Source: Lactiplantibacillus songbeiensis | GTDB taxonomy: Bacteria > Bacillota > Bacilli > Lactobacillales > Lactobacillaceae | DNA length: 58,048 bases | Assembly (NCBI RefSeq): GCF_005405125.1 | Contig: NZ_BJDL01000029.1 | Span: forward strand, 1 to 58,048 | Direction of reading: 5' to 3' | Shown: positions 4,382 through 24,297 of the stretch, piece after piece | Layout: the number at the start of each line of letters is the position of its first letter | Position numbering within the stretch: position 1 is the first letter of the stretch | Translations under genes and position numbers: made by a program | The notes under the pieces: model-generated | The model's database searches: none | What the model was told of the DNA's origin: nothing | Seen by the model: the letters and a program-made list of their open reading frames with translations, nothing else

Positions 4382-4710
4382 TACGCTTGGTGCTAGTTAA
4401 AATTGCCGCCTGCCGGTTGGTTCCTAAAACGCTGGAACGCCAACGACACGGCTGAGCATTTTAGGAACCAACCTCTCGGCTAAATAATCGAACTGAAGAT
4501 AATCAATCGTTAATTTGTCAATCCCCGTTAGTTAACGCCGGGCGGGTCAGAATTGGCTCAGTGGTGTCGTTTATCTTGGTCGGTGATTTTCCGGCCTTAG
4601 ATAAAACCCGGCTTTTGAGACCGCTCTGTGGCTCAAAAACGTGGCCACCACGTTCCAGCCGATTCTGGCCCAACCAGAGTGGCAATTTAAGCCAACTAGC
4701 ACCAAGCGTA
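4382..4710 (+). repeat. Compound intergenic repeat, most complete copy (A+B halves, 329 bp)
   Basis: The ends are inverted repeats: TACGCTTGGTGCTAGTT..AAATTGCC on the left, and its complement ending ACTAGCACCAAGCGTA on the right. Inside, half A is a hairpin with arms GGTTGGTTCCTAAAA / TTTTAGGAACCAACC. Half B is a long imperfect hairpin with outer arms CAGAATTGGCT / AGCCGATTCTG. It contains no gene; open frames inside are by-products recurring in every copy. No transposase is visible, so this is MITE-like. It occupies most of the 596-base gap between the antitoxin and the next gene. Confidence 0.85.
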
Positions 4711-8717: not shown

Positions 8718-8746
8718 TTGCAGCCGGTAGCGTTTGCAATTATAAT
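8718..8746 (+). promoter_or_regulatory. Promoter of candidate sRNA 1
   Basis: TTGCAG, 17-base spacer, perfect TATAAT. Unlike the promoters of sRNAs 2-4, it has no TTCACA direct repeat. Confidence 0.65.
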
Positions 8747-8752
8747 AGTCGC

Positions 8753-8956
8753 AGATTGATAGAAAGTGTCGAACTGACTATCAATCCTTAATATTCTTTA
8801 GTTTTTAGATCACAGCCGGTGTTGCTGCCATAATGCCGGTGCGATCACTTTCATTCATAGACTCCCCCAAGCCTTATGAATGGGGTTCATCAAAGCCCCC
8901 ACTTTGATGTTTCCTACTCCTTGACCACTGCATCCCCTGATGTGGTGGCTTTTTTT
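8753..8956 (+). ncRNA. Candidate small RNA 1 (C-rich-loop family)
   Basis: A ~204-base predicted transcript between the promoter at 8718-8746 and an intrinsic terminator (CCAC..GCAT / ATGTGGTGG plus seven T) at 8925-8956. It contains two hairpins: ATTCATA / TATGAAT with CUCCCCC in the loop (about 8853-8881), and a perfect 8-bp stem CATCAAAG / CTTTGATG closing a CCCCCA loop (8888-8909). A single-stranded TTCCTACTCC follows, and the terminator loop is CCCCTG. The repeated C-rich loops are complementary to GGGG/GGAGG ribosome binding sites. No convincing open reading frame with a binding site is present. Expression is inferred. Confidence 0.55.
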
Positions 8957-8957
8957 G

Positions 8958-9081
8958 TAGAGTGGTCACTCAGACGGGTTGACAGTGAGCATTGCCTAGT
9001 TAAGACAAGTACTCGGTGAACTTTCCGAGTGATTGGCTTAGCGTAGCAAGCGGAACTGGCAGTCTGAGTGAGCACGTTTCA
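8958..9081 (+). repeat. Structured ~124-base palindromic element, copy 1a
   Basis: It starts in the terminator tail of sRNA 1 and folds end to end. Outer arms are GTCACTCAGAC / GTCTGAGTGAGC, then fixed blocks GAGCATTGCCTAG and GCGTAGCAAGCGGAA, then the inner stem ACTCGG / CCGAGT. It ends CACGTTTCAG. See the covariation finding. Confidence 0.8.
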
Positions 9082-9098
9082 GCAAATTTGTAGCCTGT

Positions 9099-9220
9099 GA
9101 GGTTTGACGGGTTGGGGATGAGCATTGCCTAGCCAAGACAAGTACTCGGTGCTTTTTCCGAGTGGTTGGCTTGGCTTAGCGTAGCAAGCGGAACTGGCAG
9201 TCTGAGTGAGCACGTTTCAG
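9099..9220 (+). repeat. Structured palindromic element, copy 1b (tandem)
   Basis: Tandem second copy with the same fixed blocks and ACTCGG / CCGAGT hairpin. Its left outer arm has diverged (GAGGTTTGACGGG), so only the inner part pairs. The remainder of the gap, 9221-9355, shows no gene. Confidence 0.75.
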
Positions 9221-9355
9221 CCAGATTTATAAAATCCACAAAAAAAGGCCGCCCCAGCCCCAAACGGAGCCAAGTCGACCACCAACCTTAAATCCGACTG
9301 GTGCGCCATCTACTCACAATCTCAGTAAATCGTTCACCACCCAAATCTAACGTCC

Positions 9356-9772
9356 CTATTCTTCTTCCATCTCAACCACGTCACCACGTTTCGACCAGCG
9401 TTCCTTAAGCTGTACCAAACCCCACGCAATCCCCGCGGTAAATAGCAACAACATCAACGTCGACATCACAATCACAATGATAATCTGAACCCCTTCTGCT
9501 TTTAACACATCCAGCTTCGTCACTAATGCAATCCCGGACGGAATAAAAACCAAACTAATGATTTGTACGAAGAAATTACTAACGCCTTCCACTTGTTCGA
9601 GCTTGACGATTTTCAATGTTAACAATAGGTATAACATGATCATTCCAATTAAGGCGGGCGGCATCGGAAATCCTGGCCAGATTTGATTAACCAATTCCGA
9701 AATCAAACTACTAGCTAATAGAATCAAACCGTAAATCATGATTTGCTTAATAAATTTGCCTTTATTTTTCAT
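9356..9772 (-). CDS. lrgA: LrgA/CidA-family holin-like membrane protein
   Basis: 138 aa with four predicted membrane helices, the length and topology of LrgA/CidA. Recognisable segments are QIWPGFPMPPALIGMIMLYL (about 31-50), with the family's P..P...IGM signature, and SLVFIPSGIALVTKLDVL. In staphylococci LrgAB/CidAB act as holin/antiholin-like proteins affecting autolysis, and in other Firmicutes as pyruvate transporters; which applies here is unknown. The C-terminal tail is charged (RWSKRGDVVEMEEE). It lies 8 bases downstream of the lrgB stop, so the gene order is lrgB then lrgA, the reverse of the common lrgAB order. AGGAGG precedes the ATG. Confidence 0.88.
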   Translation of the reverse strand: MKNKGKFIKQIMIYGLILLASSLISELVNQIWPGFPMPPALIGMIMLYLLLTLKIVKLEQVEGVSNFFVQIISLVFIPSGIALVTKLDVLKAEGVQIIIVIVMSTLMLLLFTAGIAWGLVQLKERWSKRGDVVEMEEE

Positions 9773-9780
9773 AAGTCCTC

Positions 9781-10509
9781 CTAACCTAACCCGATTAACT
9801 GTGCGAACCCCGGCACCATAAAGTTCACTAAGATACCGGCCACGACGAACGCAATCGCGCCAGTCGCCCCAGCCGCTTCACTCACTTCAATCGCCTTTGT
9901 CGCGCCAACCGCATTACCCGCAATGCCAAAACCTAAGCCCGCGCCTAACGGATTCTTGTGCAGTTTGAACCACCGAATAAAATGATCACCCAACGCATAA
10001 ATCAAGACGGAGTTCAAAATGACTGCAAACGCCGCAATTGCTTGATCGCCACCAACCGATGCGGCGACTGGTAACGCAATCGCCGTGGTCGCCGCTTGAA
10101 CCAACATCGCACCAAGTGCCGCATCGGTCAAACCAAGTAACATCGATACGGCATAAATCCCAAAGAGTGATAATAATAGGCCTAAAAATAAGGCAATCAA
10201 AATCACATCCCAATACTTCTTAAAAATATCATTTCGCTTATACAACGGCACCGCAAAGGAAACGGTAGCCGGTGCCACAAACCAAAATAACCAATCGCCA
10301 CCAACTTGATACGCTTGATAAACTTTGTGCAACGGTGCTTGCAGGGCCGACGCAATCAATACCAGCAAACCAATCCCGAGCAGCATTCCAAAAAATAAGG
10401 GTTGGAATAATACAAACCGATTCGTTTTATGATAGAAATACTCGCCAATCCCATAGACTAGCACGGATAGCCCGATGCCAAAGAATGGATTATTGAGAAG
10501 ATAAGTCAC
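9781..10509 (-). CDS. lrgB: LrgB/CidB-family membrane protein
   Basis: ~242-aa polytopic protein of the LrgB family, the usual ~230-residue size. It begins at LLNNPFFGIGLSVLVYGIGE and contains APATVSFAVPLYKR and a C-terminal GNAVGATKAIEVSEAAGATG with the typical GIGTAKA-like signature. It pairs with LrgA in the membrane. A GTG start at 10509 is chosen because GTAGGA lies 6 bases upstream; an ATG at 10563 would add 18 atypical residues. An extended -10 (TGCTATAAT) at about 10638-10646 gives a leader of ~120 bases. No LytTR or LysR regulator gene is adjacent. Confidence 0.86.
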   Translation of the reverse strand: MTYLLNNPFFGIGLSVLVYGIGEYFYHKTNRFVLFQPLFFGMLLGIGLLVLIASALQAPLHKVYQAYQVGGDWLFWFVAPATVSFAVPLYKRNDIFKKYWDVILIALFLGLLLSLFGIYAVSMLLGLTDAALGAMLVQAATTAIALPVAASVGGDQAIAAFAVILNSVLIYALGDHFIRWFKLHKNPLGAGLGFGIAGNAVGATKAIEVSEAAGATGAIAFVVAGILVNFMVPGFAQLIGLG

Positions 10510-10674
10510 ATAATTTCCTACTTTCTTTTGTGAAATCAAAGTTACAAAAAAGGCGCCCCACATCGGGTCTAGTCATCATTTACCATGGTGGTTAGGCTCG
10601 AGCAGTGCGCCAACACGACTCTAAATATTATGTTTTAATTATAGCAAACAAAAGTAAATAATGATAGGAAGAAT

Positions 10675-11514
10675 TTAATCAACTACATAAAACATCAAAG
10701 CATACGCCCCAAGTCCCGTATGAGTCGCAATAATTGGACTCGTCCGCTCAACTAATAAATCCGCTTGCGGCGCGACTTCTTCAACTAACGCTTGGGGGGC
10801 TTTAGCCACCTCATCGTCACCGACATACGAAATTCCCGCCGCTTCAACCCGGGTCACATCAGCTAGGTCATTTAAGATTTGGGCTTGGGCTTTAATCAAG
10901 GCTTTCTTCCCGCGACCACGGGTGTAAAGCTTCAACTTACCATCGACGATTTCAAAGACAAACTTCAACTTAATTAAGTTAGTCACCATGCCGGCGATTT
11001 TCGGTACCCGGCCACCTTTAACCAAATTATCCAGCGTATCCACGAACAAATACACGTGGGTCTGCGCACGAATCACGTCAATCTTAGCGATAATGGCCTC
11101 CAAGTCTGCTCCAGCATGCGCCATGCGGGCAGCTGTCAAGACTTGAAAGGCCATGCCACGATCGGCCGACTTAGTATCAATCACAATCACGTGGCCTTTA
11201 GCCAGTTGGGCCGCTTGCCGCGCCGCATTGACCGTGCCACTCAGGGTTTCGGTTAAATGCAGCGACAAGACGGTACTGCCATCCGCGGTCAAATGGTCGT
11301 ACAAATCCACAAATGACCCAATCGCCGGCTGACTAGTGGTTGGCAACAAATCGCTAGCGGCCATCTTGCGGTCAAAATCAGCCCGTGAAATGGTATCATC
11401 GGCAACCAAATTTCCATCAAATCCCACCATTAACGACACAATGTGAATCTCATACTGTTTGATCTCGGCCGGGGTAAGTTGGACCGATGAATCCGTCACG
11501 ATTTTAATTGTCAT
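10675..11514 (-). CDS. DegV-family fatty-acid-binding protein
   Basis: ~279-aa DegV-fold protein, related to FakB, which presents fatty acids to the kinase FakA. It starts IKIVTDSSVQLTPAEI, with the family's TDSS motif. It also has LLPTTSQPAIGSF (TSQPS-like), LSLHLTETLSGTVNAAR (LSxxLSGT-like) and a C-terminal THTGLGAYALMFYV (HxGPGA/LG-like). All the fatty-acid pocket motifs are present, so it is probably functional, with an unknown acyl preference. The start at 11514 is preferred to GTG at 11526; no strong binding site is seen for either. The promoter is an extended -10 (TGCTATAAT) near 11551. A direct repeat similar to the sRNA operators overlaps it (see findings). Confidence 0.86.
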   Translation of the reverse strand: MTIKIVTDSSVQLTPAEIKQYEIHIVSLMVGFDGNLVADDTISRADFDRKMAASDLLPTTSQPAIGSFVDLYDHLTADGSTVLSLHLTETLSGTVNAARQAAQLAKGHVIVIDTKSADRGMAFQVLTAARMAHAGADLEAIIAKIDVIRAQTHVYLFVDTLDNLVKGGRVPKIAGMVTNLIKLKFVFEIVDGKLKLYTRGRGKKALIKAQAQILNDLADVTRVEAAGISYVGDDEVAKAPQALVEEVAPQADLLVERTSPIIATHTGLGAYALMFYVVD

Positions 11515-11721
11515 AATTGACGCCACGCTTTCAAGTTGTTTTGCTGGCTATTATAGCATTCACAGTTTCATCAACCGTTTTAAAGCCCGTGATAACAACG
11601 TTTAGCAAGTATCAAAACGAAGCGACGATCACAATTTAGTTATAAACTTTGTAAAACACAACTTTTAACCCACACCCAGCACTGCTTTTTCAAGAACACA
11701 TCACTGTTTTGGCTGCATGAT

Positions 11722-11753
11722 GTCACAGTTTCTTCAAAAACCGCCGTTATACT
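11722..11753 (+). promoter_or_regulatory. Promoter of candidate sRNA 2 with regulator direct repeat
   Basis: GTCACA-GTTTC-TTCAAA, exactly 9 bases, then TATACT (11748-11753). The same layout is found at 18508 and 21087. Two hexamers repeating every 11 bases in place of a -35 box are typical of activation by an OmpR/PhoB-type response regulator. Confidence 0.6.
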
Positions 11754-11759
11754 ATGTCC

Positions 11760-11909
11760 ATAGTCAATTAGGAAATCCCCGTTTCCGAACGACGCCCTAA
11801 CTTTTGAATTCATTTACTTCTCCCAAAAGTAATGAATCATGTGTGTGCACAACCTAATTTAAGTCCCACTTCCCTTTTCCACCATCTTCCCCGGATGGTG
11901 GTTTTTTTA
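11760..11909 (+). ncRNA. Candidate small RNA 2 (C-rich-loop family)
   Basis: A ~150-base predicted transcript ending at a strong terminator, CCACCATC / GATGGTGG plus seven T (11879-11908), with TTCCCC in its loop. Upstream elements are a small hairpin GGAAA-TCCCCG-TTTCC and a stem ATTCATTTACTT / AAAGTAATGAAT enclosing CUCCC. It is clearly homologous to sRNA 3: both share TAGTCAATTA, CCGAACGAC, CCCTAACTTTT and the terminator. Three C-rich loops per molecule suggest a ribosome-binding-site antisense regulator. It sits in the 627-base gap before the DyP gene. Confidence 0.65.
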
Positions 11910-12032
11910 GAGTGTGAACGAAGACGGGGTGCTGGTGAGCATTGCCTAGCTATGTCACTGACTCGGCGGGCTTTCCGAGTGAGTGACATAGCGTAGCAAG
12001 CGGAACCAGCAGTCTTCGTGAACACGTTTCAG
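11910..12032 (+). repeat. Structured palindromic element, copy 2
   Basis: The best-paired copy. Outer arms are ACGAAGAC / GTCTTCGT, middle GCTGGT / ACCAGC, inner GCTATGTCACTGACTCGG against CCGAGTGAGTGACATAGC. Fixed blocks are GAGCATTGCCTAG and GCGTAGCAAGCGGAA. It abuts the sRNA 2 terminator. Confidence 0.82.
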
Positions 12033-12081
12033 AAAAAACAACAACTCACCGAAACAACCCCACCCAAACATTTCACTTTAA

Positions 12082-12110
12082 TTGACGCTAGCCCACTAAC
12101 CGGTTACGCT
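12082..12110 (+). promoter_or_regulatory. Possible promoter of the DyP peroxidase gene
   Basis: TTGACG, 17 bases, TACGCT; a good -35 with a weak -10. Confidence 0.35.
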
Positions 12111-12141
12111 GAACTCAACTACAAGTGTTGGAGGGATAATT

Positions 12142-13098
12142 ATGCCAATTGCACCAAGTCACGCCCAAGATGTCTGGAAAGATGTCGGCGAACATGTTCA
12201 ATTCACCGTTTTAAGCTTAACGCGTCAAGATCAAGCCCAAGCACAAGCTGTATTTCAAGAATTTGCAGATCGGTCGCAAGCGATTATTCGCTCATTGCGG
12301 ATTCGCGATGCTAAGCCCGAATCGGGGTCGCAGCTCAAAGTCAGTATCGGTCTGAGTAACGCTGCATGGGATTATTTATTCCCCAATGCGCCGAAACCCC
12401 AAGAATTAGAAACTTACACGACCTTAACTGGACCTAACTATCAGATGCCGGCCTCAGCTGGTGACCTCTTCTTCCATATTCGCGCTAGCAATGAAGCGAT
12501 TGTCTACGAATGCCAGACACAATTCCGGCGGGTTCTAGACGACATTACAACCGTTGTCGATGAGACTAAGGGGTTCCGTTATTTCGAAGGCCGGGCCATT
12601 ATTGGGTTTATTGACGGCACGGAAGCGCCAGCGGTGGAAGACGCCGCTGATTACGCTTTGATTGGCGATGAAGACGCCACCTTTGAAAATGGTTCATATG
12701 CCTTTGCGCAAAAATGGCAGCATGATATGCCCGTATGGGAACACATGTCGACTGAAGATCAGGAAAAAGCCGTGGGGCGTGAAAAGTTCAGCGACTTTGA
12801 ATTAGCTGACAAAGATAAATTCAAGAATGCGCATAACGTCGCTTCCAAATTCGAAGTAGACGGTGTGGAACAAAAAATCGTACGGATGAATGTGCCATTC
12901 TCCAACCCCGCCGCTGGTAATACCGGCACCTACTTTATTGGCTATGCGCGGCACTGGACCGTTACTAAAGGGATGTTACAAAACATGCTGGATCAAGGTG
13001 ACTTTTTATTGACCTTCTCTAAATTGCTGTCTGGTCAATTATTCTTCATTCCGTCCCGTGATCTACTCGCGCAAATCGCTGACGACGACTTCCACTAA
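12142..13098 (+). CDS. DyP-type heme peroxidase
   Basis: 318-aa dye-decolorizing-type peroxidase. The family signature GFIDG is at residues 155-159, with the catalytic aspartate in it. NAHN around residue 231 is the likely proximal heme histidine, and R248 (RMNVPF) the conserved distal arginine. There is no Tat or Sec signal, so it is cytoplasmic, and no encapsulin targeting tail or encapsulin gene is visible. Such enzymes reduce peroxide while oxidising phenolic or porphyrin-like substrates; the physiological substrate is unknown. TTGGAGGG precedes the ATG with good spacing. It stands alone between sRNA 2 and the flavin reductase. Confidence 0.9.
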   Translation: MPIAPSHAQDVWKDVGEHVQFTVLSLTRQDQAQAQAVFQEFADRSQAIIRSLRIRDAKPESGSQLKVSIGLSNAAWDYLFPNAPKPQELETYTTLTGPNYQMPASAGDLFFHIRASNEAIVYECQTQFRRVLDDITTVVDETKGFRYFEGRAIIGFIDGTEAPAVEDAADYALIGDEDATFENGSYAFAQKWQHDMPVWEHMSTEDQEKAVGREKFSDFELADKDKFKNAHNVASKFEVDGVEQKIVRMNVPFSNPAAGNTGTYFIGYARHWTVTKGMLQNMLDQGDFLLTFSKLLSGQLFFIPSRDLLAQIADDDFH

Positions 13099-13120
13099 AC
13101 CTTATTTCCTTCAGAGAACA

Positions 13121-13170
13121 AAAATAGCCTTGCAGAAATTTCGGTAATTTCTGCAAGACTATTTTTTTTT
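13121..13170. terminator. Bidirectional terminator
   Basis: Arms AAAATAG.CTTGCAGAAAT / ATTTCTGCAAG.CTATTTT between two converging genes. Confidence 0.88.
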
Positions 13171-13192
13171 AACCCATCAGTTTACTAAACCC

Positions 13193-15547
13193 TTATTTGA
13201 CTTGTTTCAACGCATCCTGAACGGCTTCTTTAATCGCTCGACTAGAAGCCGATGCACCAGAAATCGCATCAACATCGGTCGAATTAGCGGCCACGATTTC
13301 TTTTGGCAACTGGTCAACTGCGACTAAGCCAACGTCTTCACTTTCATGATGTTGAACAACTTCAACATTTTCAATCTGCTTAGCGCGATACGTGACCCGC
13401 ACGGTGATCTTACCACCTAAGCCACTGTTGGAACTGCCTAAATACTGATCAGCGCCAAGATCGACTTTGGCTGCATTTTCGGTATCTACAATATCATTGA
13501 CCCCGTTGACGTCATCGGCATCGACATCATCGGCATCGGCCTTTGCAGTTGCCGCTTGTTCGCCGGCTAGCTTACCGAAAATTAAACATTCCGCTAAGTT
13601 ACCGCCACCTTGGTAACAGTTTGAGACAATTCCACCGAGTTCACCGGCACCATAAAGATGTGGAATCGGTTGATCATTGACACCTAAGATTTGCGCCTTT
13701 TCGTTGCGTTCAGGCCCACCTTGGGTATTCAAGACATCGTTAGCGACCGCAATCGCATAGTAAGGCCCATCGTCAAAGGCCCGCATACTCTCAACGTGCC
13801 GGCCAAATTCATAATCTTCACCGGCTGCTTTAAATTGATTAAAGCGAGCGACAGTCTTTGCTAGATTATCAGCTGGTACGTCCATTTGGGTGGCTAATTT
13901 AGCTAAAGAATCCGCGGAGATCAATTTATCCATAAATTCGGGGTAAGGTAACCGACCGTTAGCGGCTAATTCTTGCTTGAAGTCATTGTATTGAGCTTGA
14001 TCAAAGACCAAGTATGGATGCAAATTCTTCATCGGAATCAACCATGAGCCATGGGTCTTAATATGACCATGCCGATGTGGTGAGTCTTCTGGGAAGTAAC
14101 GGGTCCCGTCATCAGCGGTCACTAAGATACTTCCTTGCTTCAATAATGGCCAGTTCAATTGCCGACCACGTTCATTATCAGCTTCTTTAAAGGTCAAACC
14201 TGGCAAAACACCGTGTGATTCATAGTTGGCCATATGCCACATCTTGGCCCCTACCGTTTGGGCCATCTTAACCCCATCACCACGGTTATAGAGCGTACCT
14301 AATGGCGTTAAGCGCTTGCTATGCAAGTAAGTCTGGACGAGTTCAGGGTTATTTTCAAAGCCGCCCATCGCTAAGACGACCCCATTCTTCGCATGCACAT
14401 TGATCACTTGATCGTGACGTTTGATTTGCACGCCACGAATAATGCCAGTACCAGGTTCTTGAATCAACTTTTGAGCCCGGGAATCCAACCAAATATCAAT
14501 CTTGTCGGTCCGATCCATGACTTGTTGCCGTAAGACTTTCCACAAGCCAGCGTCTTTGTCACGTTTGTGGACCAGCGCAAAGTCAACGGTCTCGCTACCC
14601 TTTAGTTCTGGGTATTCCGCCATCGTCTTCTTCATATCAACCGCATCGCCAGGCTTAACATCATGCTTCCAGCTAACAGCTTTAATGCCTAAGTAATTTT
14701 CAAAGTAAGCGGGAATCTGGCTCATCCCACGTAGATAAGCCTGCAAAGTCTTTTCTGGGGTGACGAACGACCCATTCAAGCCGTGATAGTAATCGGTCAA
14801 GTCTTTTAAGCTTTCACCCATGACCACGTGTTGGGCAGAATAACGGGTATTCCCACCTTCACGACCATAAGGTGCCGTTTCAACAACTAAGACCCGCGCG
14901 CCATTGTCAGCGGCAAACCGGGCAGCCGAGGCTCCGGCACCCCCAAAGCCTAACACGATCACATCATAATTGCCTTGCCATTTAACGGCCAACGCGGGCG
15001 TACCGTTTTGCATTTTAACTAATTGCGTGAAATGCGCAAAACAACTTTCCAAGAAACTAATCGTCTTTTGGTCAACTAAGCACCCTTGGTCATCAAAGGC
15101 TTTCGGTGCAAAGCTCAACATAAATTCATTGCCAGGTAAGACGGTCGCCCCAACGCCAGGTGAGTTCAAGATTAACCGTAATTCATCTTGGGCGCGCGAC
15201 GTGCCTTGGATGCCTAAGGACGTGCCGACAATCATTAGCGGTTTGCCATTTAACGGATGCACACTATAGGAGAGCCATTCGATGACACTCTTCAAAGCAG
15301 CTGGCACAGCGTGATCATATTCAGGTACCCCAATAATGACCCCATCGGCAGCGTCAATTTGATCGGCTAAGGTCTGAACAGCGGCTGGTAATTCAGCGTC
15401 TTTACTAGGTTCTTTAAATAATGGGACTTGATCAATTTCAGCCACGGTCATGCTGACTTGGGTACTGAAATGATGTTGCATGTAATGTAGTAATTCACGA
15501 TTATATGATTTTTCGGCATTCGTACCGACAATAGCGACTAATTTCAT
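13193..15547 (-). CDS. Three-domain flavin reductase: FMN reductase - FAD (fumarate reductase-like) - FMN-bind
   Basis: 784-aa cytoplasmic flavoprotein. Residues 1-180 form an NADPH_FMN_red domain (PEYDHAVPA at 75-83). From 194 an FAD-binding fumarate-reductase/KstD-type domain begins with GFGGAGASAAR (200-210) and ends with QGGGNLAECLIFGKLAGEQA. An acidic linker leads to a C-terminal FMN_bind domain whose DAISGASASS (about 760-769) matches the ApbE flavinylation motif, so covalent FMN is expected. This architecture is that of L. plantarum enzymes reducing C=C bonds of hydroxycinnamates or vinylphenols (HcrB, VprA) and of NADH:fumarate/acrylate-type reductases. The divergent dicarboxylate-type transporter and LysR gene hint at an imported unsaturated acid as substrate. 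AAGGAC precedes the ATG. Confidence 0.85.
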   Translation of the reverse strand: MKLVAIVGTNAEKSYNRELLHYMQHHFSTQVSMTVAEIDQVPLFKEPSKDAELPAAVQTLADQIDAADGVIIGVPEYDHAVPAALKSVIEWLSYSVHPLNGKPLMIVGTSLGIQGTSRAQDELRLILNSPGVGATVLPGNEFMLSFAPKAFDDQGCLVDQKTISFLESCFAHFTQLVKMQNGTPALAVKWQGNYDVIVLGFGGAGASAARFAADNGARVLVVETAPYGREGGNTRYSAQHVVMGESLKDLTDYYHGLNGSFVTPEKTLQAYLRGMSQIPAYFENYLGIKAVSWKHDVKPGDAVDMKKTMAEYPELKGSETVDFALVHKRDKDAGLWKVLRQQVMDRTDKIDIWLDSRAQKLIQEPGTGIIRGVQIKRHDQVINVHAKNGVVLAMGGFENNPELVQTYLHSKRLTPLGTLYNRGDGVKMAQTVGAKMWHMANYESHGVLPGLTFKEADNERGRQLNWPLLKQGSILVTADDGTRYFPEDSPHRHGHIKTHGSWLIPMKNLHPYLVFDQAQYNDFKQELAANGRLPYPEFMDKLISADSLAKLATQMDVPADNLAKTVARFNQFKAAGEDYEFGRHVESMRAFDDGPYYAIAVANDVLNTQGGPERNEKAQILGVNDQPIPHLYGAGELGGIVSNCYQGGGNLAECLIFGKLAGEQAATAKADADDVDADDVNGVNDIVDTENAAKVDLGADQYLGSSNSGLGGKITVRVTYRAKQIENVEVVQHHESEDVGLVAVDQLPKEIVAANSTDVDAISGASASSRAIKEAVQDALKQVK

Positions 15548-15674
15548 AGTTAACAGTCCTTTTCAGTTTTATGTCTGATTTCATTTAACAGCGTGTGGTT
15601 GTTCACGAGGTCAATATAACGACTTTTGACGAAAAGGCAATGTGAAATTTTGATTAAGTCGATTAAAGGCTGGT

Positions 15675-15705
15675 ATATCAGGTTAAATTAGCCTGATATT
15701 TTTTT
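15675..15705 (+). terminator. Terminator-like hairpin inside the divergent intergenic region
   Basis: A perfect stem ATATCAGG / CCTGATAT is followed by seven T on the plus strand, ~45 bases after a possible promoter TTGACG-N17-TTTGAT (15626-15654). It could mark a very short RNA, an attenuator of the transporter gene, or an operator. Confidence 0.4.
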
Positions 15706-15928
15706 GAACAGGCTGATTATCATTGTGTAAAGCGCTTACTTTAGCTAAATAATTGTTTGATATTCATAAATATTATTAATGAATATTACTAGATTAAAAC
15801 CGACACTTAACGTTTAAAACCATGTCGTAATAATTAATTCCGTGGGGTTTCTCTTCTATTATTCCTATTAAATCAACATTTAAATGATTATTCAATCTCA
15901 TCTATTAGTCTTACCCCCTATCCAAGGA

Positions 15929-15956
15929 TTGACAATTACAAAATAAAAGTTATGAT
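15929..15956 (+). promoter_or_regulatory. Promoter of the DASS transporter gene
   Basis: Perfect TTGACA, 16 bases, TATGAT. The ~135-base leader includes an inverted repeat GATCACTGACG / CGTCAATGATC (16018-16046). Upstream, GTAAAGCGCTTAC at about 15727 resembles a catabolite-repression site with one extra base. The rest of the 551-base gap holds no gene. Confidence 0.6.
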
Positions 15957-16098
15957 ATCTCATGAATCTTAAGCAAACGCATTCAATCTCCATATTCATG
16001 TGAATCTTTTATCAATTGATCACTGACGACGGTTGCGTCAATGATCGTGATTGCCATTATTCATGGTTCAAACCATCAGCATAAAGGGGCTCAAAATT

Positions 16099-17514
16099 AT
16101 GATTAGTAAAATCAATTGGAAAGCATTTCTCTTACCTTTAATTCTCGGCATTGCTATCTGGCTGCTGACACCATTTAAGCCAACCGATATTAATACCGCC
16201 GCTTGGCATTTATTTGCCATCTTCGTCGCTACCATCGTGGCCTGCATTACCAAGCCACTGCCAATGATGGCAACGACCTTAATTGGGATCACCATTGCGA
16301 CTTTATCAGGGATCTTTACGATGGATGAAGTCACGGCGGGCTTTGGGAATTCGACCGCTTGGATGGTCGCGATGTGTATGTTCATGGCCGCTGGCTTCAT
16401 CAAGTCCGGTTTAGGCAAACGGATTGCTTACCTCTTCGTTAAATTATTTGGTAAGCACACGTTGGGCTTAGCTTATGCATTATCAGCCGTCGATACCGTT
16501 TTAGCCATTGGCATTCCAAGTAACAACGCCCGGGTCAACGGGATTATGTATCCAATCATCGATAACCTCTCACACGAGATGGGTTCCGATCCGAAAAAAG
16601 GCACCCAGCGTAAATTAGGCTCATTTTTAATCTTTAACGAATACGAAATCAATAACGTTACTTCTGGCTTATTCCTAACTGGACTGGCTGGGAACATGGT
16701 CGCGTTAGGTCTAGCTAAGACGCAAGGGATCACCGTTTCTTGGTTACAATGGTTTGCGGCCGCGAGTGTTCCGGGGATTCTCTCGCTATTAGTCATCCCG
16801 TTCGTCCTTTATAAAGTCTATCCACCCGAAGTCAAAGAAACGCCCAATGCCCATGCGTGGGCCGATGCCCGCTTAAAAGAAATCGGTAAAATGACCTTGA
16901 GTGAAAAGATCATGTTAACGACCTTCGTCTTGGCGATTGGGCTCTGGCTCGTGGGAACCAAGATTGGTATCGACGCCACTGAAGTCAGCTTTATTGCGGT
17001 TGTCATCCTCTTAATCACGGGGGTCTTAACGACCAAGGATATGTTAAAAGAAAGCTTTGCGTGGAATATCTTAGTGTGGTTATCAGTCATTATGTTAATG
17101 TCTCAAAAGCTCATGACATTAGGCTTCTTCCCATGGTTCTCAAAGACGTTGGGTAACGCCTTGCACGGGATGAGCTGGCTGTTTGTCTTAATCATCTTAT
17201 TCTTAGCTTACTTCTACTTACATTACATGTTCCCAAGTGTCTCAACACAAATCTCCGCCCTGTATGCCGGCTTCCTCTCCGTAGCGATTGGGGCAGGGGT
17301 GCCCCATACATTAGCGGCCTTAATGTTGGCCTTTTGCGGGTCAATCTATTTATCTACGACCCCTTATTCAGCCGGCCCAGCCGCGTTGCTTTCCGGTACT
17401 GGTTACGTTTCTAATAAAGAATGGTGGCAGCTAAGTGCCCTGATTGGGGTTATCTTCAACGTCATCTGGCTCGGTGGCGGTCTCTTATGGACCAAGGTCA
17501 TCGGCCTCTGGTAA
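16099..17514 (+). CDS. DASS/SLC13-family divalent-anion transporter
   Basis: 471-aa membrane protein with about a dozen helices, of the divalent anion:sodium symporter family (CitT/SdcS group), which moves di- and tricarboxylates. The two conserved SNT-type substrate motifs appear as IPSNNARVNG in the first half and STTPYSAGPAALLSG near the C-terminus. In CitT-type members transport can be an exchange such as fumarate or tartrate for succinate. The ATG at 16099 is chosen over in-frame starts at 16051 and 16063 because AAGGGG lies 9 bases upstream and the hydrophobic N-terminus then begins correctly (MISKINWKAFLLPLILG). It is divergent from the flavin reductase and followed by the LysR gene. 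Confidence 0.88.
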   Translation: MISKINWKAFLLPLILGIAIWLLTPFKPTDINTAAWHLFAIFVATIVACITKPLPMMATTLIGITIATLSGIFTMDEVTAGFGNSTAWMVAMCMFMAAGFIKSGLGKRIAYLFVKLFGKHTLGLAYALSAVDTVLAIGIPSNNARVNGIMYPIIDNLSHEMGSDPKKGTQRKLGSFLIFNEYEINNVTSGLFLTGLAGNMVALGLAKTQGITVSWLQWFAAASVPGILSLLVIPFVLYKVYPPEVKETPNAHAWADARLKEIGKMTLSEKIMLTTFVLAIGLWLVGTKIGIDATEVSFIAVVILLITGVLTTKDMLKESFAWNILVWLSVIMLMSQKLMTLGFFPWFSKTLGNALHGMSWLFVLIILFLAYFYLHYMFPSVSTQISALYAGFLSVAIGAGVPHTLAALMLAFCGSIYLSTTPYSAGPAALLSGTGYVSNKEWWQLSALIGVIFNVIWLGGGLLWTKVIGLW

Positions 17515-17522
17515 TCAAAAAT

Positions 17523-17578
17523 TAAAAACCGCTCCTAAACTAATTTACGCTATACTTAACTTAGTTTAGGGGAGGTTT
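17523..17578 (+). promoter_or_regulatory. Hairpin combining terminator, -10 box and LysR ribosome binding site
   Basis: Arms AAAACCGCTCCTAAACTAA / TTAGTTTAGGGGAGGTTTTT pair almost fully. The right arm contains the GGGGAGG that serves the LysR gene, and the loop contains TATACT, a good -10 sequence. Read-through from the transporter would hide the ribosome binding site or terminate; initiation inside the loop would leave it free. Confidence 0.6.
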
Positions 17579-17583
17579 TTTTG

Positions 17584-18471
17584 ATGAATGAGCGCGATTT
17601 AAAATACTATTGTCACTTAGTCGAGAGTGGCAACTACACAGCAACGGCCAAACACTTTCAAGTGACCCAGCCCGCCATTTCGGCTGCTTTGAAACGGTTA
17701 GAAACCCAATACGGGACGCAGCTCTTAAGCCAGCCCAATCATCGCGCCCGCTTAGTCACGACCGCTGCCGGTCAAGTCCTATATATTCGCGCGCGCAAGC
17801 TCATTCAAGAATTCGCTCAAGTTACTTTGGATGTCCGGCACGCCGATGATCAAAAGGTTCGACTAGGCTTTTCACATAACGCCGCTAGTATTTGGTTGCC
17901 TAAAGTGATTGAAACCTTTGCGCATCACCAGTTACTGCCAGCCATTACCACGACCGTCGCGATGTCGGAGCCTTTGTTCGACCAGCTTCATCGCCATAAG
18001 TTAGACGCTGCCATCTTGTCGACTTTACAGCCGATGCAATCAGCGGACTTGCAGGTCTTTCAGTTAACGACCCACCCACTTTGCGTGTTGGTTAATCGAC
18101 ATCACCCGCTCAGCCAGCAATCGATGATCCAAGCAACCGATTTACAGCAAGTCCCAATCATCGCGCGCTTACCGCACTCGTTGCCGCGCACTGCGCTGGA
18201 ACAGTACTGCCAACAGCGACAACTGCAGCCAAATATTATCTACGAGGCTCATTCGAATCAATTAGTTGAAAAATTAGTCGCCCGTAATCTCGGCATCGGC
18301 TTTGTGATCGCCGGCTCGGTTTCGCTGAGCCAAGACGTTGTGGCCGTGCCATTAAAGTCCAGTGAAGCAATTAACTGCTACATGCAACTCGTCGTCCGCA
18401 AGTCCTTCTTACCAACGGCTCGGCAAGTCCATTGCATTAGTCTGCTCAAAAAAATTCCAACCCAAGGATAA
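17584..18471 (+). CDS. LysR-type transcriptional regulator
   Basis: 295-aa LysR-family regulator. The N-terminal winged helix is canonical (NYTATAKHFQVTQPAISAAL, about residues 18-37, then KRLETQYGTQLL). It is followed by a two-lobed effector domain beginning near residue 90 (KVRLGFSHNAAS). Adjacent to the transporter and close to the divergent flavin reductase, it is the obvious candidate activator of both, responding to their substrate; this is inferred from position. ATG at 17584 is chosen over the overlapping TTG at 17581, with GGGGAGG 9 bases upstream inside the hairpin at 17523-17578. Confidence 0.88.
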   Translation: MNERDLKYYCHLVESGNYTATAKHFQVTQPAISAALKRLETQYGTQLLSQPNHRARLVTTAAGQVLYIRARKLIQEFAQVTLDVRHADDQKVRLGFSHNAASIWLPKVIETFAHHQLLPAITTTVAMSEPLFDQLHRHKLDAAILSTLQPMQSADLQVFQLTTHPLCVLVNRHHPLSQQSMIQATDLQQVPIIARLPHSLPRTALEQYCQQRQLQPNIIYEAHSNQLVEKLVARNLGIGFVIAGSVSLSQDVVAVPLKSSEAINCYMQLVVRKSFLPTARQVHCISLLKKIPTQG

Positions 18472-18507
18472 TTCGTCGATTCAAAATCATAGCTTTAGCC
18501 GAAAGCC

Positions 18508-18539
18508 GTCACAGTTTGTTCACAGGCCACGGCTATACT
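18508..18539 (+). promoter_or_regulatory. Promoter of candidate sRNA 3 with regulator direct repeat
   Basis: GTCACA-GTTTG-TTCACA, exactly 9 bases, then TATACT (18534-18539). Confidence 0.62.
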
Positions 18540-18545
18540 TTAGGC

Positions 18546-18692
18546 ATAGTCAATTAAGGAATTCCCCGTTCCCGAACGACACCCTAACTTTTAAATTCAT
18601 TTACACCCCCAAGTAATGAATTGTGTGTGATATACCCTAACTTTAAAGTTTTACCCCTTTTTCCACCATTCTTCCCCGGATGGTGGTTTTTT
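18546..18692 (+). ncRNA. Candidate small RNA 3 (C-rich-loop family)
   Basis: A ~147-base predicted transcript, homologous to sRNA 2 along its length, ending at CCACCAT..CTTCCCC..GATGGTGG plus six T (18663-18692). Hairpins are GGAA-TTCCCCG-TTCC, and ATTCATTTAC / AAGTAATGAAT with CACCCCC in the loop. The single-stranded part TTACCCCTTTTTCC is also pyrimidine-rich. Sequence differences from sRNA 2 concentrate outside the C-rich loops. Confidence 0.65.
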
Positions 18693-18693
18693 A

Positions 18694-18817
18694 TAGAGTG
18701 TGAGGTAAAGCGGGGTGACGATGAGCATTGCCTAGCTATGGCAATTATCCGGTGACTTTCCGGATGGTTGGCATGGCGTAGCAAGCGCAGTCGCTAGCTT
18801 TGCCGAACACGTTTCGA
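18694..18817 (+). repeat. Structured palindromic element, copy 3
   Basis: The inner stem is ATCCGG / CCGGAT here instead of ACTCGG / CCGAGT, and the outer arm AGGTAAAGC pairs GCTTTGCC, so both stems changed in a compensatory way. The fixed block GAGCATTGCCTAG is retained. Confidence 0.8.
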
Positions 18818-19034
18818 CAAATTCACAGAAAAAGTCGCTGTCACTAGCACTACTAAGGCCTTAACAGCCTTAAATTTTCCCATTCACCAAAAAGATTCCA
18901 CCCGTTTAGTAAGTCCGCACCCCAATCCAACCCATTAGCTCACCTAACAAAGTCCCCATCACACCGGCATTTCGTTGACCAAGCTAAGCAACCTATCGTA
19001 AGCTGGCACTACTTTAAAGATGGGGGAAAATCAT
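18818..19034. other. Intergenic stretch without a recognised feature
   Basis: Between the structured repeat and the amidohydrolase gene. No open reading frame with a binding site and no strong hairpin is seen; a promoter for the amidohydrolase gene presumably lies here. Confidence 0.5.
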
Positions 19035-20216
19035 ATGTCTAAAACTACATTCAAGAATTGCCAGTTATTCGACGGCGCCCATGACGCCATTCAAGCTAAT
19101 AGTTGGTTCACGGTTAATGATGCTGGTCGGATTACCGCGATGGGGACCGGGACTGCGCCAAGTAGTGACCACGTTGTTGATCTCAATGGCAAATACGTCA
19201 TGCCCGGGTTGATCAATGCTCACACGCATATCACGATGGACCCCAAAGTCGGCAGTGGCGACACTGGCGTCGATGAAGTCACCGCGACCGTCCGCGCCGT
19301 TCAAAACTTGCATGAGCTCTTAAAATCCGGTGTCACTTATATTCGCGAATGCGGCTGTACATTTAACATCGACGTCACACTTGAGAAACTACGCGCAACT
19401 GGTAAATTAACCAAGATTCCCAACATTTTACCGTCTGGCCAACCATTTTCAATGACGGGTGGGCATGGCGACTTGCCAAACTTCGGCAAACTAGTCGATT
19501 CACCCGACGAAATGCGTAAAGCCGTGCGAACAGCCTTACGTGATGGCGTCAAAGCCGTCAAACTCATGGCAACCGGTGGCGTCATGACCCCCGGTGACTT
19601 TATGGATGATCCGCAATTGACCATTGAAGAAATGTCAGTCGCGGTCGCCGAAGCCCATCACAAGGGTAATATTGTCGCCGCCCATGCGGAAGGCAACCCC
19701 GGCATCTATAACGCCATCAAAGCCGGCGTTGATTCGATCGAACACGGCTGTTACGTCACCGATGACGAGATCGACATGATGCTCGATCAAGGCACTTACT
19801 TGACACCCACCCTAGTCGCCGCTTGGACGATTCCTGAATTTGGCCCGGGTAAGTTACCTGACTGGGAAGTCAAAAAATCCGCCGATGCCTGGGGCGATAT
19901 TTGCGTCAACATCGAACATGCCCGTCAACGCGGCGTAAAAATCACGTTGGGGACCGATGCCGGTACGCCCTACAATGACTTCTCAATGACGCCAGTTGAA
20001 TTCGAATTAATGGTCCGGAATGGTGCGCCGAACTTTGCCGCCTTACAGACCAATCAAAATTCGGCGGCATTATTAAACATCGCCGATGATTATGGAACGT
20101 TGGTTGAAAATAAAATTGCGGACTTCTTAGTGTTAGACCGCGATCCGTTAGCGGACGTCAAGGCTGTCCAACAATTAGACAAGGCCGTCTATAAATCAGG
20201 CGTCCAAGTGTATTAA
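19035..20216 (+). CDS. Amidohydrolase (imidazolonepropionase/prolidase-like, metal-dependent)
   Basis: 393-aa TIM-barrel amidohydrolase. All metal-site elements are visible in order: NAHTHITMD (HxH, about residue 65), VKLMATGG (the lysine that is carboxylated in this subgroup), AAHAEGNPG, EHGCY and GTDAGTPY (catalytic Asp). This set matches the cytoplasmic Xaa-Pro/Xaa-Arg dipeptidase and ochratoxinase-like subgroup rather than HutI itself; the substrate is unknown. There is no signal peptide. ATG at 19035 is chosen because GGGGGAAA lies 7 bases upstream; an in-frame ATG at 19020 overlaps that site. Confidence 0.86.
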   Translation: MSKTTFKNCQLFDGAHDAIQANSWFTVNDAGRITAMGTGTAPSSDHVVDLNGKYVMPGLINAHTHITMDPKVGSGDTGVDEVTATVRAVQNLHELLKSGVTYIRECGCTFNIDVTLEKLRATGKLTKIPNILPSGQPFSMTGGHGDLPNFGKLVDSPDEMRKAVRTALRDGVKAVKLMATGGVMTPGDFMDDPQLTIEEMSVAVAEAHHKGNIVAAHAEGNPGIYNAIKAGVDSIEHGCYVTDDEIDMMLDQGTYLTPTLVAAWTIPEFGPGKLPDWEVKKSADAWGDICVNIEHARQRGVKITLGTDAGTPYNDFSMTPVEFELMVRNGAPNFAALQTNQNSAALLNIADDYGTLVENKIADFLVLDRDPLADVKAVQQLDKAVYKSGVQVY

Positions 20217-20227
20217 ACTAAGGCATC

Positions 20228-20258
20228 AAAAAAGGTTGGGCTAGCGTCCAATCTTTTT
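20228..20258 (+). terminator. Intrinsic terminator
   Basis: AAAAAAGGTTGG / CCAATCTTTTTT after the amidohydrolase gene. Confidence 0.8.
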
Positions 20259-20341
20259 TAATAGCCACTATTCAGTAGGCAAACGCAGCAAAATTTGCTA
20301 GAATACCCCTTAATAATTAAAACTTGAAGGGGGAACCCACT

Positions 20342-21034
20342 TTGTTCTTTTTTGACCCAACTTACTTTCTCGTTATTATCGGCTTAATCATCTCGATGGC
20401 CGCTTCCAGCTACGTTAACCGCACGTTCCATCATTATGATAGTTACCGTAGCCAAAGCAACCAGACCGGGAGCGATGCGGCCCGCTTTATCTTATCGCAA
20501 TCTGGTATTCAAGATGTCGGCGTCCAAGCCATCAGTGGCGACTTAACTGATAATTATAATGGCCAGACTAAGGTACTCAGCTTGTCTGAATCTACCGCCA
20601 ACTCAACCTCAGTTGCCGCAATTGGTGTCGCGGCGCACGAATGTGGACACGCGGTTCAAGATCACGTCAATTACTGGCCGATGCGCTTACGAACGGCCTT
20701 AGTTCCCGCCGCCAATCTCGGGTCAACATTATCATTACCAATAATCATCGTCGGGGTCTTGTTGAGTTACAACACAACGTTAATCCATATCGGGATCTTC
20801 TTATTCTCATTAGCATTACTTTTTCAATTAGTCACCTTACCCGTAGAATTCAATGCGTCCCGGCGTGCTTTAAAAATCTTGTCAAACGGCCAAGTCCTAA
20901 CGCCAACCGAAGTCCCGATGGTTCGCAAAGTTTTAGTCGCAGCGGCGCTAACTTATGTTGCCGCGGCGCTATCGACTTTCCTACAACTCTTGCGGCTGGT
21001 GCTCTTATTCGGCGGCAACCGCGACACCGATTAA
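20342..21034 (+). CDS. Membrane zinc metallopeptidase (YugP family)
   Basis: ~230-aa membrane protease. The zinc motif AAHECGHAVQ (HExxH type) sits near residue 98, preceded by STANSTSVAAIGV, the typical layout of YugP-like neutral zinc peptidases. An N-terminal helix (FLVIIGLIISMAASSYV) and two further hydrophobic segments (SLPIIIVGVLLSY, IGIFLFSLALLFQLV), with a C-terminal helix, place the active site at the membrane. EFNASRRA supplies the conserved downstream glutamate region. A TTG start at 20342 is chosen because GAAGGGGGA lies 6-8 bases upstream; the in-frame TTG at 20324 overlaps that site. The biological substrate is unknown. Confidence 0.86.
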   Translation: MFFFDPTYFLVIIGLIISMAASSYVNRTFHHYDSYRSQSNQTGSDAARFILSQSGIQDVGVQAISGDLTDNYNGQTKVLSLSESTANSTSVAAIGVAAHECGHAVQDHVNYWPMRLRTALVPAANLGSTLSLPIIIVGVLLSYNTTLIHIGIFLFSLALLFQLVTLPVEFNASRRALKILSNGQVLTPTEVPMVRKVLVAAALTYVAAALSTFLQLLRLVLLFGGNRDTD

Positions 21035-21086
21035 AAGTTAGCTTAACAAATGCTTAGGGATTTTTTCACGACATTGCACCAGTTCG

Positions 21087-21118
21087 TTCACATATTCTTC
21101 ACAGGCACTCGGTATGAT
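21087..21118 (+). promoter_or_regulatory. Promoter of candidate sRNA 4 with perfect regulator direct repeat
   Basis: TTCACA-TATTC-TTCACA, exactly 9 bases, then TATGAT (21113-21118). This is the cleanest copy of the repeat. Confidence 0.65.
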
Positions 21119-21124
21119 AGCATC

Positions 21125-21277
21125 ATAGCAATTGAGGTAAAGCTCATTGTTACTATCTACAACCTAAAATTTTTCATTTACTCCTCCAAAGTAATGAAAT
21201 TAATAACGTCAGGTGACTCCCCATCACCTGACTACCCTACTCCTTTTTCCACCGTATCCCCGTACGGTGGTTTTTTT
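21125..21277 (+). ncRNA. Candidate small RNA 4 (C-rich-loop family)
   Basis: A ~153-base predicted transcript. Stem TTCATTTACT / AGTAATGAA has CCTCC in the loop. A perfect 9-bp stem GTCAGGTGA / TCACCTGAC closes a CTCCCCA loop (21208-21232). Linker CCCTACTCC follows, and the terminator CCACCGTA-TCCCCG-TACGGTGG carries seven T (21249-21277). Three C-rich loops face outward, each complementary to GGAGG or GGGGA. Confidence 0.68.
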
Positions 21278-21278
21278 G

Positions 21279-21402
21279 TAGAGTGTGAACGAAGACGGGT
21301 TGCTAGCGAGCATTGCTTAGTCATGCCAATTACTCGGTGGGTTTCCGAGTAGTTGGCGTGGCGTAGCAAGCGGAACTAGCAGTCTGAGTGAACACGTTTC
21401 AG
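21279..21402 (+). repeat. Structured palindromic element, copy 4
   Basis: Middle stem GCTAG / CTAGC, inner ACTCGG / CCGAGT, and the pair ATGCCAATTACTCGG / CCGAGTAGTTGGCGT. Fixed blocks are retained. A partial copy with the central stem deleted follows at about 21430-21482 (GACGAGCATTGCAAGCGGAA). Confidence 0.8.
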
Positions 21403-21586
21403 CAAGTTTGAAGAAAACGCAAAGTAGGTCGGTGACGAGCATTGCAAGCGGAACTAGCAGTCTGAGTGATCATATTTCAGCCAATCCCCTCAAAAGCCAC
21501 CCACAGTTTAAACGAAAACTTTACAATTTCCATAACTTAGCACATATCCCTTTAACTTTTACCCCCCAAGTCGTTATACTAGGAAC

Positions 21587-21731
21587 ATGGCAGTTGAACT
21601 TGTCACTCAACTACCATAATCTTTTTCATTTACTCCTCCAAAGTTAATGAAAAATTAGTTTCGTTGGGCACTCCAACCTGACGAAAAGAACTACTCCTTT
21701 TGCCGTCGCTTAACAGCGATGGTTTTTATTT
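21587..21731 (+). ncRNA. Candidate small RNA 5 (C-rich-loop family)
   Basis: A ~145-base predicted transcript from a -10 box TATACT at 21575-21580 to terminator CCGTCGCT / AGCGATGG plus a T run (21702-21731). The 5' hairpin is ATGGCAGTTGA / TCAACTACCAT. It then has TTCATTTACTCCTCCAAAGT, a block nearly identical to sRNA 4, whose loop is CTCCTCC, and a hairpin around CACTCCAACC, then CTACTCC. It lacks the TTCACA repeat upstream and is not followed by a structured palindrome, so it is a more divergent member. Confidence 0.55.
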
Positions 21732-21806
21732 TTACTTTCAGAAAACTTGCAATTCTAAAACCGGCAAGCGTATGATAATCGAGGAAGCTTAATAAGGAGT
21801 GATTAT

Positions 21807-24084: not shown

Positions 24085-24297
24085 TTCCTGCCGGTTAGTC
24101 TCTAAAACCCCAACAATTAACGACGGGCGGGCCAGAATTGGCTCAGTGGTGTCGTTTCACTTAAGCGAGTGATTTTCTCGATTTAGTGAAAGCCCGGCTT
24201 TCGAGACCGTACCATGGCTCGAAAACGTGGCCACCACGTTCCAGCCAATTCTGGACCAACCAGAGTGGCAAGTCCAATCTAACTAACACCAAATAGA
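24085..24297 (+). repeat. Compound intergenic repeat (B half with A remnant)
   Basis: CTGCCGGTTAGTCTCTAAAA is all that remains of A. B is complete, but its inner hairpin has changed to TTTCACTTAAGCGAG / CTCGATTTAGTGAAA, different from TTATCT..AGATAAA in other copies yet still self-complementary. The right end is AACTAACACCAAATAG. Confidence 0.82.

Follow-up and report, generated by a model that had tools for sequence, protein, structure and literature searches.

Candidate antisense small RNA genes with C-rich, Shine-Dalgarno-complementary loops form a conserved cluster in Lactiplantibacillus songbeiensis

Small RNAs (sRNAs) that present C-rich segments complementary to the Shine-Dalgarno (SD) sequence are known from several relatives of the lactobacilli. 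For the Listeria LhrC sRNAs, control by a two-component system (LisR) and pairing with SD sequences have been shown (PMC4132741, PMC5880928; all articles cited here by PMC number are drawn on in excerpt). For instance, LhrC4 uses redundant UCCC sites to bind the SD region of lapB, with stem A opening in the authors' model, and a UCCC motif is likewise cited there for target binding by RsaE, FsrA, SprD, and RNAIII (PMC4132741). The streptococcal csRNAs (CiaRH) are encoded by several genes per genome, carry anti-SD and anti-AUG segments, and have a hexamer-N5-hexamer direct repeat situated some 10 nt upstream of the -10 box (PMC3091779). In Enterococcus, Ref84 (Rfam RF02846) comprises E. faecalis sRNA_109 and E. 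faecium sRNA_093, whose function is given as unknown (PMC7724050). Lactobacilli are described as being without Hfq in the excerpt of PMC4132741, and that of PMC3091779 reports no CiaH homologue in Lactobacillus. Here, five intergenic islands (I1 to I5) are analysed in a 58,048-nt stretch of the 3.03 Mb genome of Lactiplantibacillus songbeiensis (contig NZ_BJDL01000029.1, positions 1 to 58,048; hereafter the window). They are candidate genes for small antisense RNAs, which a preliminary description of this DNA had likened to the csRNAs and LhrC and had not recognised as a described family. In the open-licence literature, no such trans-acting sRNA family was recognised as described or characterised in lactobacilli; an Enterococcus relative is already present in Rfam as Ref84.

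All five islands were found where the preliminary description had placed them, within 13 kb on the + strand and between protein genes (span 8753-21732). Each contains three to five C-rich runs in the sense direction and none or one in the antisense direction, and about 5% of random 155-nt windows contain at least three. The C-rich tetramers of the islands are predicted to be largely single-stranded, with a mean unpaired probability above 0.9 in 29 of 39 cases and below 0.5 in only one (I3, position 18570, 0.33). Every island ends in a terminator. A CCCC terminator loop had been ascribed to all five; a CCC-containing loop is present in I1 to I4 and in none of the other hairpins listed for comparison, and the terminator loop of I5 reads TAAC.

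Homology among the islands was assessed with two covariance models. The first, R1, was built from 24 sequences, namely four window islands and 20 matches of the Ref84 model from other genomes. The second, R2, was built from 104 R1 matches in 96 loci, with recognised Lactiplantibacillus loci excluded to avoid circularity. With filters off, the four best matches of R2 in the window were I4 (54.9 bits, E 2e-7), I5 (50.4 bits, E 1.2e-6), I3 (41.5 bits, E 4.6e-5), and I2 (37.3 bits, E 2.6e-4). On this sequence comparison, I2 to I5 are paralogues of one RNA family. The homology earlier noticed within the pairs I2/I3 (80% identity over 193 nt) and I4/I5 thus extends to all four.

The islands form a genus-wide cluster. 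A DNA search detected a single copy of I1 in each of the 21 genus genomes (84-100% identity). When 19 of these were aligned, almost no variation was seen in the -10 region, in either C-rich hairpin, in the CCTACTCC linker, or in the terminator's 5' arm, and the rest is variable. In 20 of the 21 genomes, R1 members follow I1 on the same strand at a distance of no more than 20 kb, and in the other one I1 is on a different contig. At E <=0.1, R1 matched all 21 genomes, with two to eight matches in each. At E 0.01, matches were found in at least 126 of 295 genomes of the order and in 38 of its 74 genera, with up to 13 matches per genome, and at class level in at least six of 200 genomes, all six in the order Lactobacillales; filters were stricter in scans over more than 40 genomes, which makes these figures minimum values. 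Relatives also carry three or four tandem copies about 195-213 bp apart (L414 and L415 in our locus numbering). Additionally, the exact hairpin A 18-mer TTTACTCCTCCAAAGTAA occurs in at least 118 stretches, and among the 80 matches listed, 78 are titled Lactobacillales. Of these 80 named loci, five named Lactiplantibacillus contigs and one uncultured Lactobacillus contig align with the window at 70-86%. Judged by sequence, an 18-mer match labelled Sedimentibacter (L154) is near-identical to a Trichococcus locus (L124) and probably a misassigned contig, and a Paracoccus match (L159), which has none of the surrounding elements, looks like a chance match. The names Enterococcaceae, Streptococcus, Vagococcus, and Trichococcus, as applied here to some genomes, are presumptive and come in part from named matches; R1 found no match in the 11 listed genomes of one group (f4/g20) that we take to be Streptococcus.

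Further copies exist outside the window, so the five-member set of the preliminary description is short by at least two. One, on contig C7 at 56484 (L241), has the operator described below, hairpin A, a second C-rich hairpin, and a terminator. The other, on contig C2 at about 14463-14738 (L351), is larger and has the same elements including the operator. It holds GAGCGGCATGTGAACGTCCCCCCGCTTATATGAATAAACGCTC, which is nearly the same across the eight genomes read, and between this member and seven relatives the stem of the second C-rich hairpin varies, while its CCCC-containing loop is constant. At C16:31053 (L408), the operator and a -10 box are followed by I2/I3-like sequence without C-rich loops, which is possibly a relic of the family.

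The paired structure of the family is conserved. It was evaluated on 116 matches that had not been selected by the 18-mer, 99 of them distinct, in an alignment fitted to the model, which favours the result. Among the 99 distinct matches, 93.0% of cells were paired against 64.6% after shuffling, both-side changes occurred in 448 cells against 145, and the covariation score was 0.690 against 0.154 for shuffled and 0.174 for the best slid versions. Hairpin A is 88.3% paired with both-side changes in five of seven pairs, and the terminator is 96.8% paired with such changes in all nine. The linker retains a C-rich piece in 95 of the 99 sequences. Loss of the loops in related species, which the preliminary description had named as evidence that would refute it, was not seen: a C-rich tetramer is kept in loop A in 94 of the 99 distinct matches, a count that is partly circular, as the model contains such loops. 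By these alignments, hairpin A covaries while its C-rich loop is retained.

A direct repeat, TTCACA-N5-TTCACA, lies 5' of the -10 box in I2, I3, and I4 and had been missed by the preliminary description. At least 10 of its 12 bases are matched upstream of 67 of 85 sRNA copies in named genomes, a number that shuffled sequences would put at about 1.3 (L154, L159, and two copies with less than 170 nt upstream are excluded). The first TANNNT starts exactly 9 nt 3' of the repeat in 64 of the 67. Among the 77 sRNA operators with scores of 9 or more, C is the third base in 68 first and 76 second half-sites. A search of 251 Lactobacillaceae genomes gave 42 occurrences of the exact 17-mer TTCACACTTTCTTCACA, spread over 35 of the genomes, and its reversed control was absent from the matches listed for the same genomes. 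When 30 exact-operator loci (31 of the 42 sites) were judged by eye, a C-rich hairpin RNA was found behind the operator in 22, a protein gene in six, and neither in two. A fixed rule (at least three C-rich runs in 210 nt) was satisfied at 16 of the 31 sites in sense and at one in antisense, and by 10.6% of random stretches. A strict loop A pattern was applied within the genus; it was present within 220 nt at 16 of 19 operator loci and within 200 nt in eight of 20 stretches fetched around weaker operator variants. In a loose scan of the genome itself (up to two mismatches), 24 sites were found and the reversed control gave 12; the non-sRNA sites revealed no clear regulon.

Other elements were also seen behind this operator. 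In other Lactobacillaceae (L265, L266, L281), it precedes C-rich RNAs that have little similarity to hairpin A; the regulon may therefore include unrelated C-rich sRNAs. In the genus labelled g14 (L277, L278, L279, L280, L282), it stands before a small protein gene, of 168-171 codons in the three translated, whose product had no Pfam match in the one scanned and could be a protein member of the regulon.

The sequence of hairpin A suggests how such RNAs might act. In all five islands, a CAU precedes the C-rich loop by 3-6 nt, and across the family it does so by 2-10 nt in 68 of 96 sequences versus 25.8 expected, an excess that is overstated because the sequences are related. In I4 and I5, CAU-UUA-CUCCUCC is the complement of GGAGGAG-UAA-AUG, that is, of an SD sequence, a spacer, and a start codon, and the opposite arm, AAAGUAAUGAA, looks like such a target. 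The order of CAU and anti-SD suggests that the loop finds the SD sequence and that the hairpin then opens over the start codon, as in the LhrC4-lapB model. Loop types differ between islands (CCUCC in I4/I5, CCCCC in I1/I3), and SD types vary among the window genes, so that partial specialisation among the islands is possible. The preliminary description had GGAGG or GGGGA before most genes; they precede 13 and five, respectively, of 49 window genes, with starts chosen favouring an SD sequence. In these 49 genes, the loops pair better with the start region than with one coding window each (45 of 49 for loop A of I4 and 29 of 49 for its terminator loop), in a test that is partly circular, because the starts were chosen by SD, and that ranks no target.

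Taken as a whole, we consider that the islands are genes for multi-site antisense sRNAs under two-component control, with a probability of roughly 0.7. An OmpR-type response regulator, possibly PieR-like, would bind TTCACA-N5-TTCACA just 5' of the -10 box and switch on transcription of I2 to I4 under cell-envelope stress. Each RNA would present several unpaired C-rich segments, in loop A, loop B, the linker, and the terminator loop. Contact with a target mRNA would start at its SD sequence, through loop A (CUCCUCC, CUCCC, or CCCCC); hairpin A would then open, and its 5' arm (CAU-N3-6-C-rich) would pair across SD, spacer, and AUG and block the ribosome. The additional C-rich sites may provide redundancy or allow multi-target capture.

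The closest described relative of the family is Ref84. Searches with Rfam models at gathering threshold gave no matches in the window. Below threshold, the Ref84 model found I4 (37.2 bits, E 0.005 over the whole genome) and I5 (30.0 bits, E 0.097), against a gathering score of 52; it aligns at full length (1-87) to both, with the same element order, and R2 recovers the Ref84-positive loci of L413 as well as I2 to I5. Ref84 has an ACAAC-rich 5' start, UUUUUCAUUU followed by hairpin A, a CUCC linker, and a terminator, as here. In contrast to the window members, which are longer and in I1 to I4 have a C-rich terminator loop, its loop A is mostly without a C-rich tetramer (five of six Enterococcaceae-type loci). 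By sequence, Ref84 is a relative, at a score below threshold. The Listeria LhrC model (RF00616, gathering 110) scores 24.7 bits at I4 and 33-35 bits in the Trichococcus-like loci L409, L411, and L412, and LhrC is possibly a relative. Like the family described here, LhrC1-5, Rli22, and Rli33-1 are multicopy and have a CU-rich motif in loop A, linker, and terminator loop. I1 to I4 have the LhrC-type C-rich motif in loop A, the single-stranded linker, and the terminator loop, and I5 lacks it in the last. The control region differs, since the LisR-responsive element of LhrC5 is upstream of -53 in the excerpt of PMC4132741, whereas the operator here ends 9 nt before the -10 box.

The preliminary description's analogy with csRNAs and LhrC fits insofar as there are several copies per genome, unpaired C-rich SD-complementary segments, and an operator of direct repeats whose spacing to the -10 box is constant. 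However, the csRNA repeat is TTTAAG-N5-TTTAAG (CiaR) and that found here is TTCACA-N5-TTCACA, and because the repeats differ the family is not a csRNA family. The csRNAs hold their anti-SD unpaired between two stem-loops (excerpt of PMC3091779), whereas here it is unpaired in a loop; the CAU is present in five of five islands, inside a stem arm. RsaE, FsrA, SprD, and RNAIII share the UCCC motif, and none gave a gathering-level Rfam match in the window. Tentatively, and with more doubt than confidence, one ancestral Lactobacillales sRNA regulon may be proposed: a conserved two-component system and its cognate repeat, 9 nt from the -10 box, would drive antisense RNAs (up to 13 matches per genome) whose hairpin A complements SD, spacer, and AUG; Ref84 and possibly LhrC would be derived from it, and csRNAs would be a functional replacement where it was lost. 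The result is a concrete, multicopy, order-wide family for which an operator, a possible regulator, and a mode of pairing can be proposed. It also ties the Enterococcus RNA Ref84, and possibly Listeria LhrC, to one proposed regulon, so that findings from a food-grade organism could be informative for each of these RNAs.

The genome has seven OmpR-type response-regulator matches. A PieR-like locus (contig C24) is the only one of the seven with an operator above 10 bits in the position weight matrix (PWM) scan: GCCATACTTTTTTCACA (17.5 bits), 5' of the regulator gene. The other six loci, of about 3.2 kb each, have none; 34 sites exceeded this score in 349,210 positions of the genome's own loci, known operators included. 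The best NCBIfam matches of the C24 regulator and kinase are PieR (290 of 450 bits) and PieS (434 of 850 bits), both below cut-off. A close homologue of the PieR-like protein is present in 30 of 30 chosen genomes at 61-99% identity, with the next-best among the matches listed at no more than 49%, and the operator precedes its gene in all four Lactiplantibacillus genomes examined (this one, G006, G008, and G015). These data make the PieR-like system a possible regulator, a lead rather than proof.

Several observations weigh against the interpretation as two-component-controlled antisense sRNAs. I1 was ranked fifth by R2 (17.1 bits, E 0.99), beside background at 16.4 bits, and is not significant; because of this ranking its membership is unproven, and it may be a more distant family member or a separate C-rich sRNA of the same cluster. 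Clusters of at least four C-rich runs are no rarity in the window: there are 16 of them on the + strand and five on the - strand, and the islands are five of these 21. With 16 further clusters, C-rich content alone is non-specific, and the comparison with relatives decides. The family sequences are mutually related, so that shuffling overstates the significance of the structural result; a CCC-containing terminator loop is found in only 32 of 99 of them, and five of six Enterococcaceae-type loci examined have no C-rich tetramer in loop A. In the PWM scan of the window, the operator stands before I2, I3, and I4 and not before I1 or I5, and elsewhere the exact operator is also 5' of protein genes, in six of the 30 loci judged (L267, L277-L280, L282). 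With respect to the regulator, the operator precedes the PieR-like gene in none of 27 genomes outside Lactiplantibacillus (best 10.1 bits), the exact PieR-promoter operator occurs in only the four genomes mentioned among 21 of the genus (pattern search, one mismatch allowed), and seven near variants that were fetched (L389-L395) have no response-regulator open reading frame behind them. Additionally, a TTTACA-N5-TTTACA repeat lies before a solute-binding-protein gene adjoining a PhoPR-like system, which makes a PhoP-type regulator an alternative. That the same RNAs with the same mechanism answer to a regulator other than the PieR-like one, whether of LisR/ArlR or PhoP type or several, is accordingly a serious contender, only somewhat short of an even chance. 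It agrees with that repeat, with the lack of the operator before the PieR-like gene in the 27 genomes from outside Lactiplantibacillus, and with the LisR dependence of Listeria LhrC (excerpts of PMC4132741 and PMC5880928), but is opposed by the lack of a site above 10 bits at the remaining six response-regulator loci and by the third base of the half-sites, which is C in the sRNA operators and T in the repeat at the solute-binding-protein gene.

Other explanations concern the RNAs themselves. Independent origins of LhrC, Ref84, and the window RNAs as pyrimidine-rich, terminator-bearing lookalikes would be plausible for short, low-complexity molecules, and the LhrC model indeed scores far below its gathering value at I4 and in the three Trichococcus-like loci; yet the element order shared with Ref84 speaks against convergence in that one case, and convergence as a whole appears unlikely. 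If the C-rich loops titrated a protein instead of pairing with mRNAs, the recurrence of similar motifs within one molecule and the presence of several genes in one genome would be understandable, and protein binding was raised speculatively for LhrC (excerpt of PMC4132741). However, the loop is complementary to the SD sequence and the preceding CAU suits an antisense role, which leaves titration quite improbable. Least probable of all is that the islands act in cis, as attenuators in the 5' leader of whichever gene follows, and that the terminator is the switch. I2, I3, and I5 do lie upstream of same-strand genes (a Dyp-type peroxidase at 12142, an amidohydrolase at 19020, and an alpha/beta hydrolase at 21807, respectively), but no such gene is directly 3' of I1, where lrgA/lrgB are on the opposite strand, or of I4, where I5 is next, and neither the three or four tandem copies of relatives nor up to 13 matches per genome fit such a role.

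The predicted parts of the islands, all on the + strand, are as follows. I1 (8753-8956), a candidate sRNA of about 200 nt supported by folds and genus conservation, is preceded by a TATAAT -10 box (8741-8746) that is invariant in the 19-genome alignment and has no TTCACA operator. It folds into a 5' hairpin (8754-8786), a hairpin with a CTCCCCCA loop (about 8852-8885), a hairpin with a CCCCC loop (8888-8909), and, after the CCTACTCC linker, a terminator (8925-8948). The I2 operator GTCACAGTTTCTTCAAA (11722-11738; PWM 19.3 bits) is 9 nt 5' of TATACT (11748-11753). In the folds, I2 (11760-11910) begins with a 5' hairpin with CCCC within its loop (about 11771-11786), followed by hairpin A with loop CTCCC (11808-11837), a C-rich linker, and a terminator with loop TCCCC (11879-11901). 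Similarly, the I3 operator GTCACAGTTTGTTCACA (18508-18524; 20.8 bits) is 9 nt 5' of TATACT (18534-18539), and I3 (18545-18695) has hairpin A with loop CCCCC (18594-18622), a TTACCCC linker, and a terminator with loop TTCCCC (18663-18686). The I4 operator TTCACATATTCTTCACA (21087-21103; 25.5 bits) matches the pattern with zero mismatches, 9 nt 5' of TATGAT (21113-21118). I4 (21125-21278) consists of hairpin A with loop CTCCTCC (21172-21199), hairpin B with loop CTCCCC (21208-21232), a CCTACTCC linker, and a terminator with loop CCCC (21249-21270). I5 (21587-21732) has a sigma70-like promoter with TATACT (21575-21580) and no operator above 9 bits; hairpin A with loop CTCCTCC (21622-21654) is followed by hairpin B, whose loop contains ACTCC (21659-21686), a CTACTCC linker, and the terminator (21702-21723).

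Two further approaches to the islands were set aside. A mechanical promoter scan gave 23 sites against 22.5 expected and is uninformative alone. Small peptides encoded by the islands were rejected, as the longest internal open reading frame has 24 codons (I1) and is without an SD sequence.

Dispersed repeats also occur in the window. A foldable 135-bp repeat lies directly 3' of the terminators of I1 to I4, with copies at 8951-9085, 9087-9224, 11902-12035, 18687-18787, 21272-21406, and 21444-21481; the minimum free energy of the copy at 21272 is -62 kcal/mol. It was rejected as a part of the sRNA family, since its 49 genome matches also follow other terminators or none. A T-run is found just 5' of 14 of the 30 copies read (random expectation 4.8%), as if the repeat tended to insert after terminators. 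A second dispersed repeat, with a core like GGGCCAGAATTGGCTCAGTGGTGTCGTT, is present in both orientations, at 4520-4709, 24106-24295, and 53994-54183 and, inverted, at 31372, 37611, 39575, and 42153.

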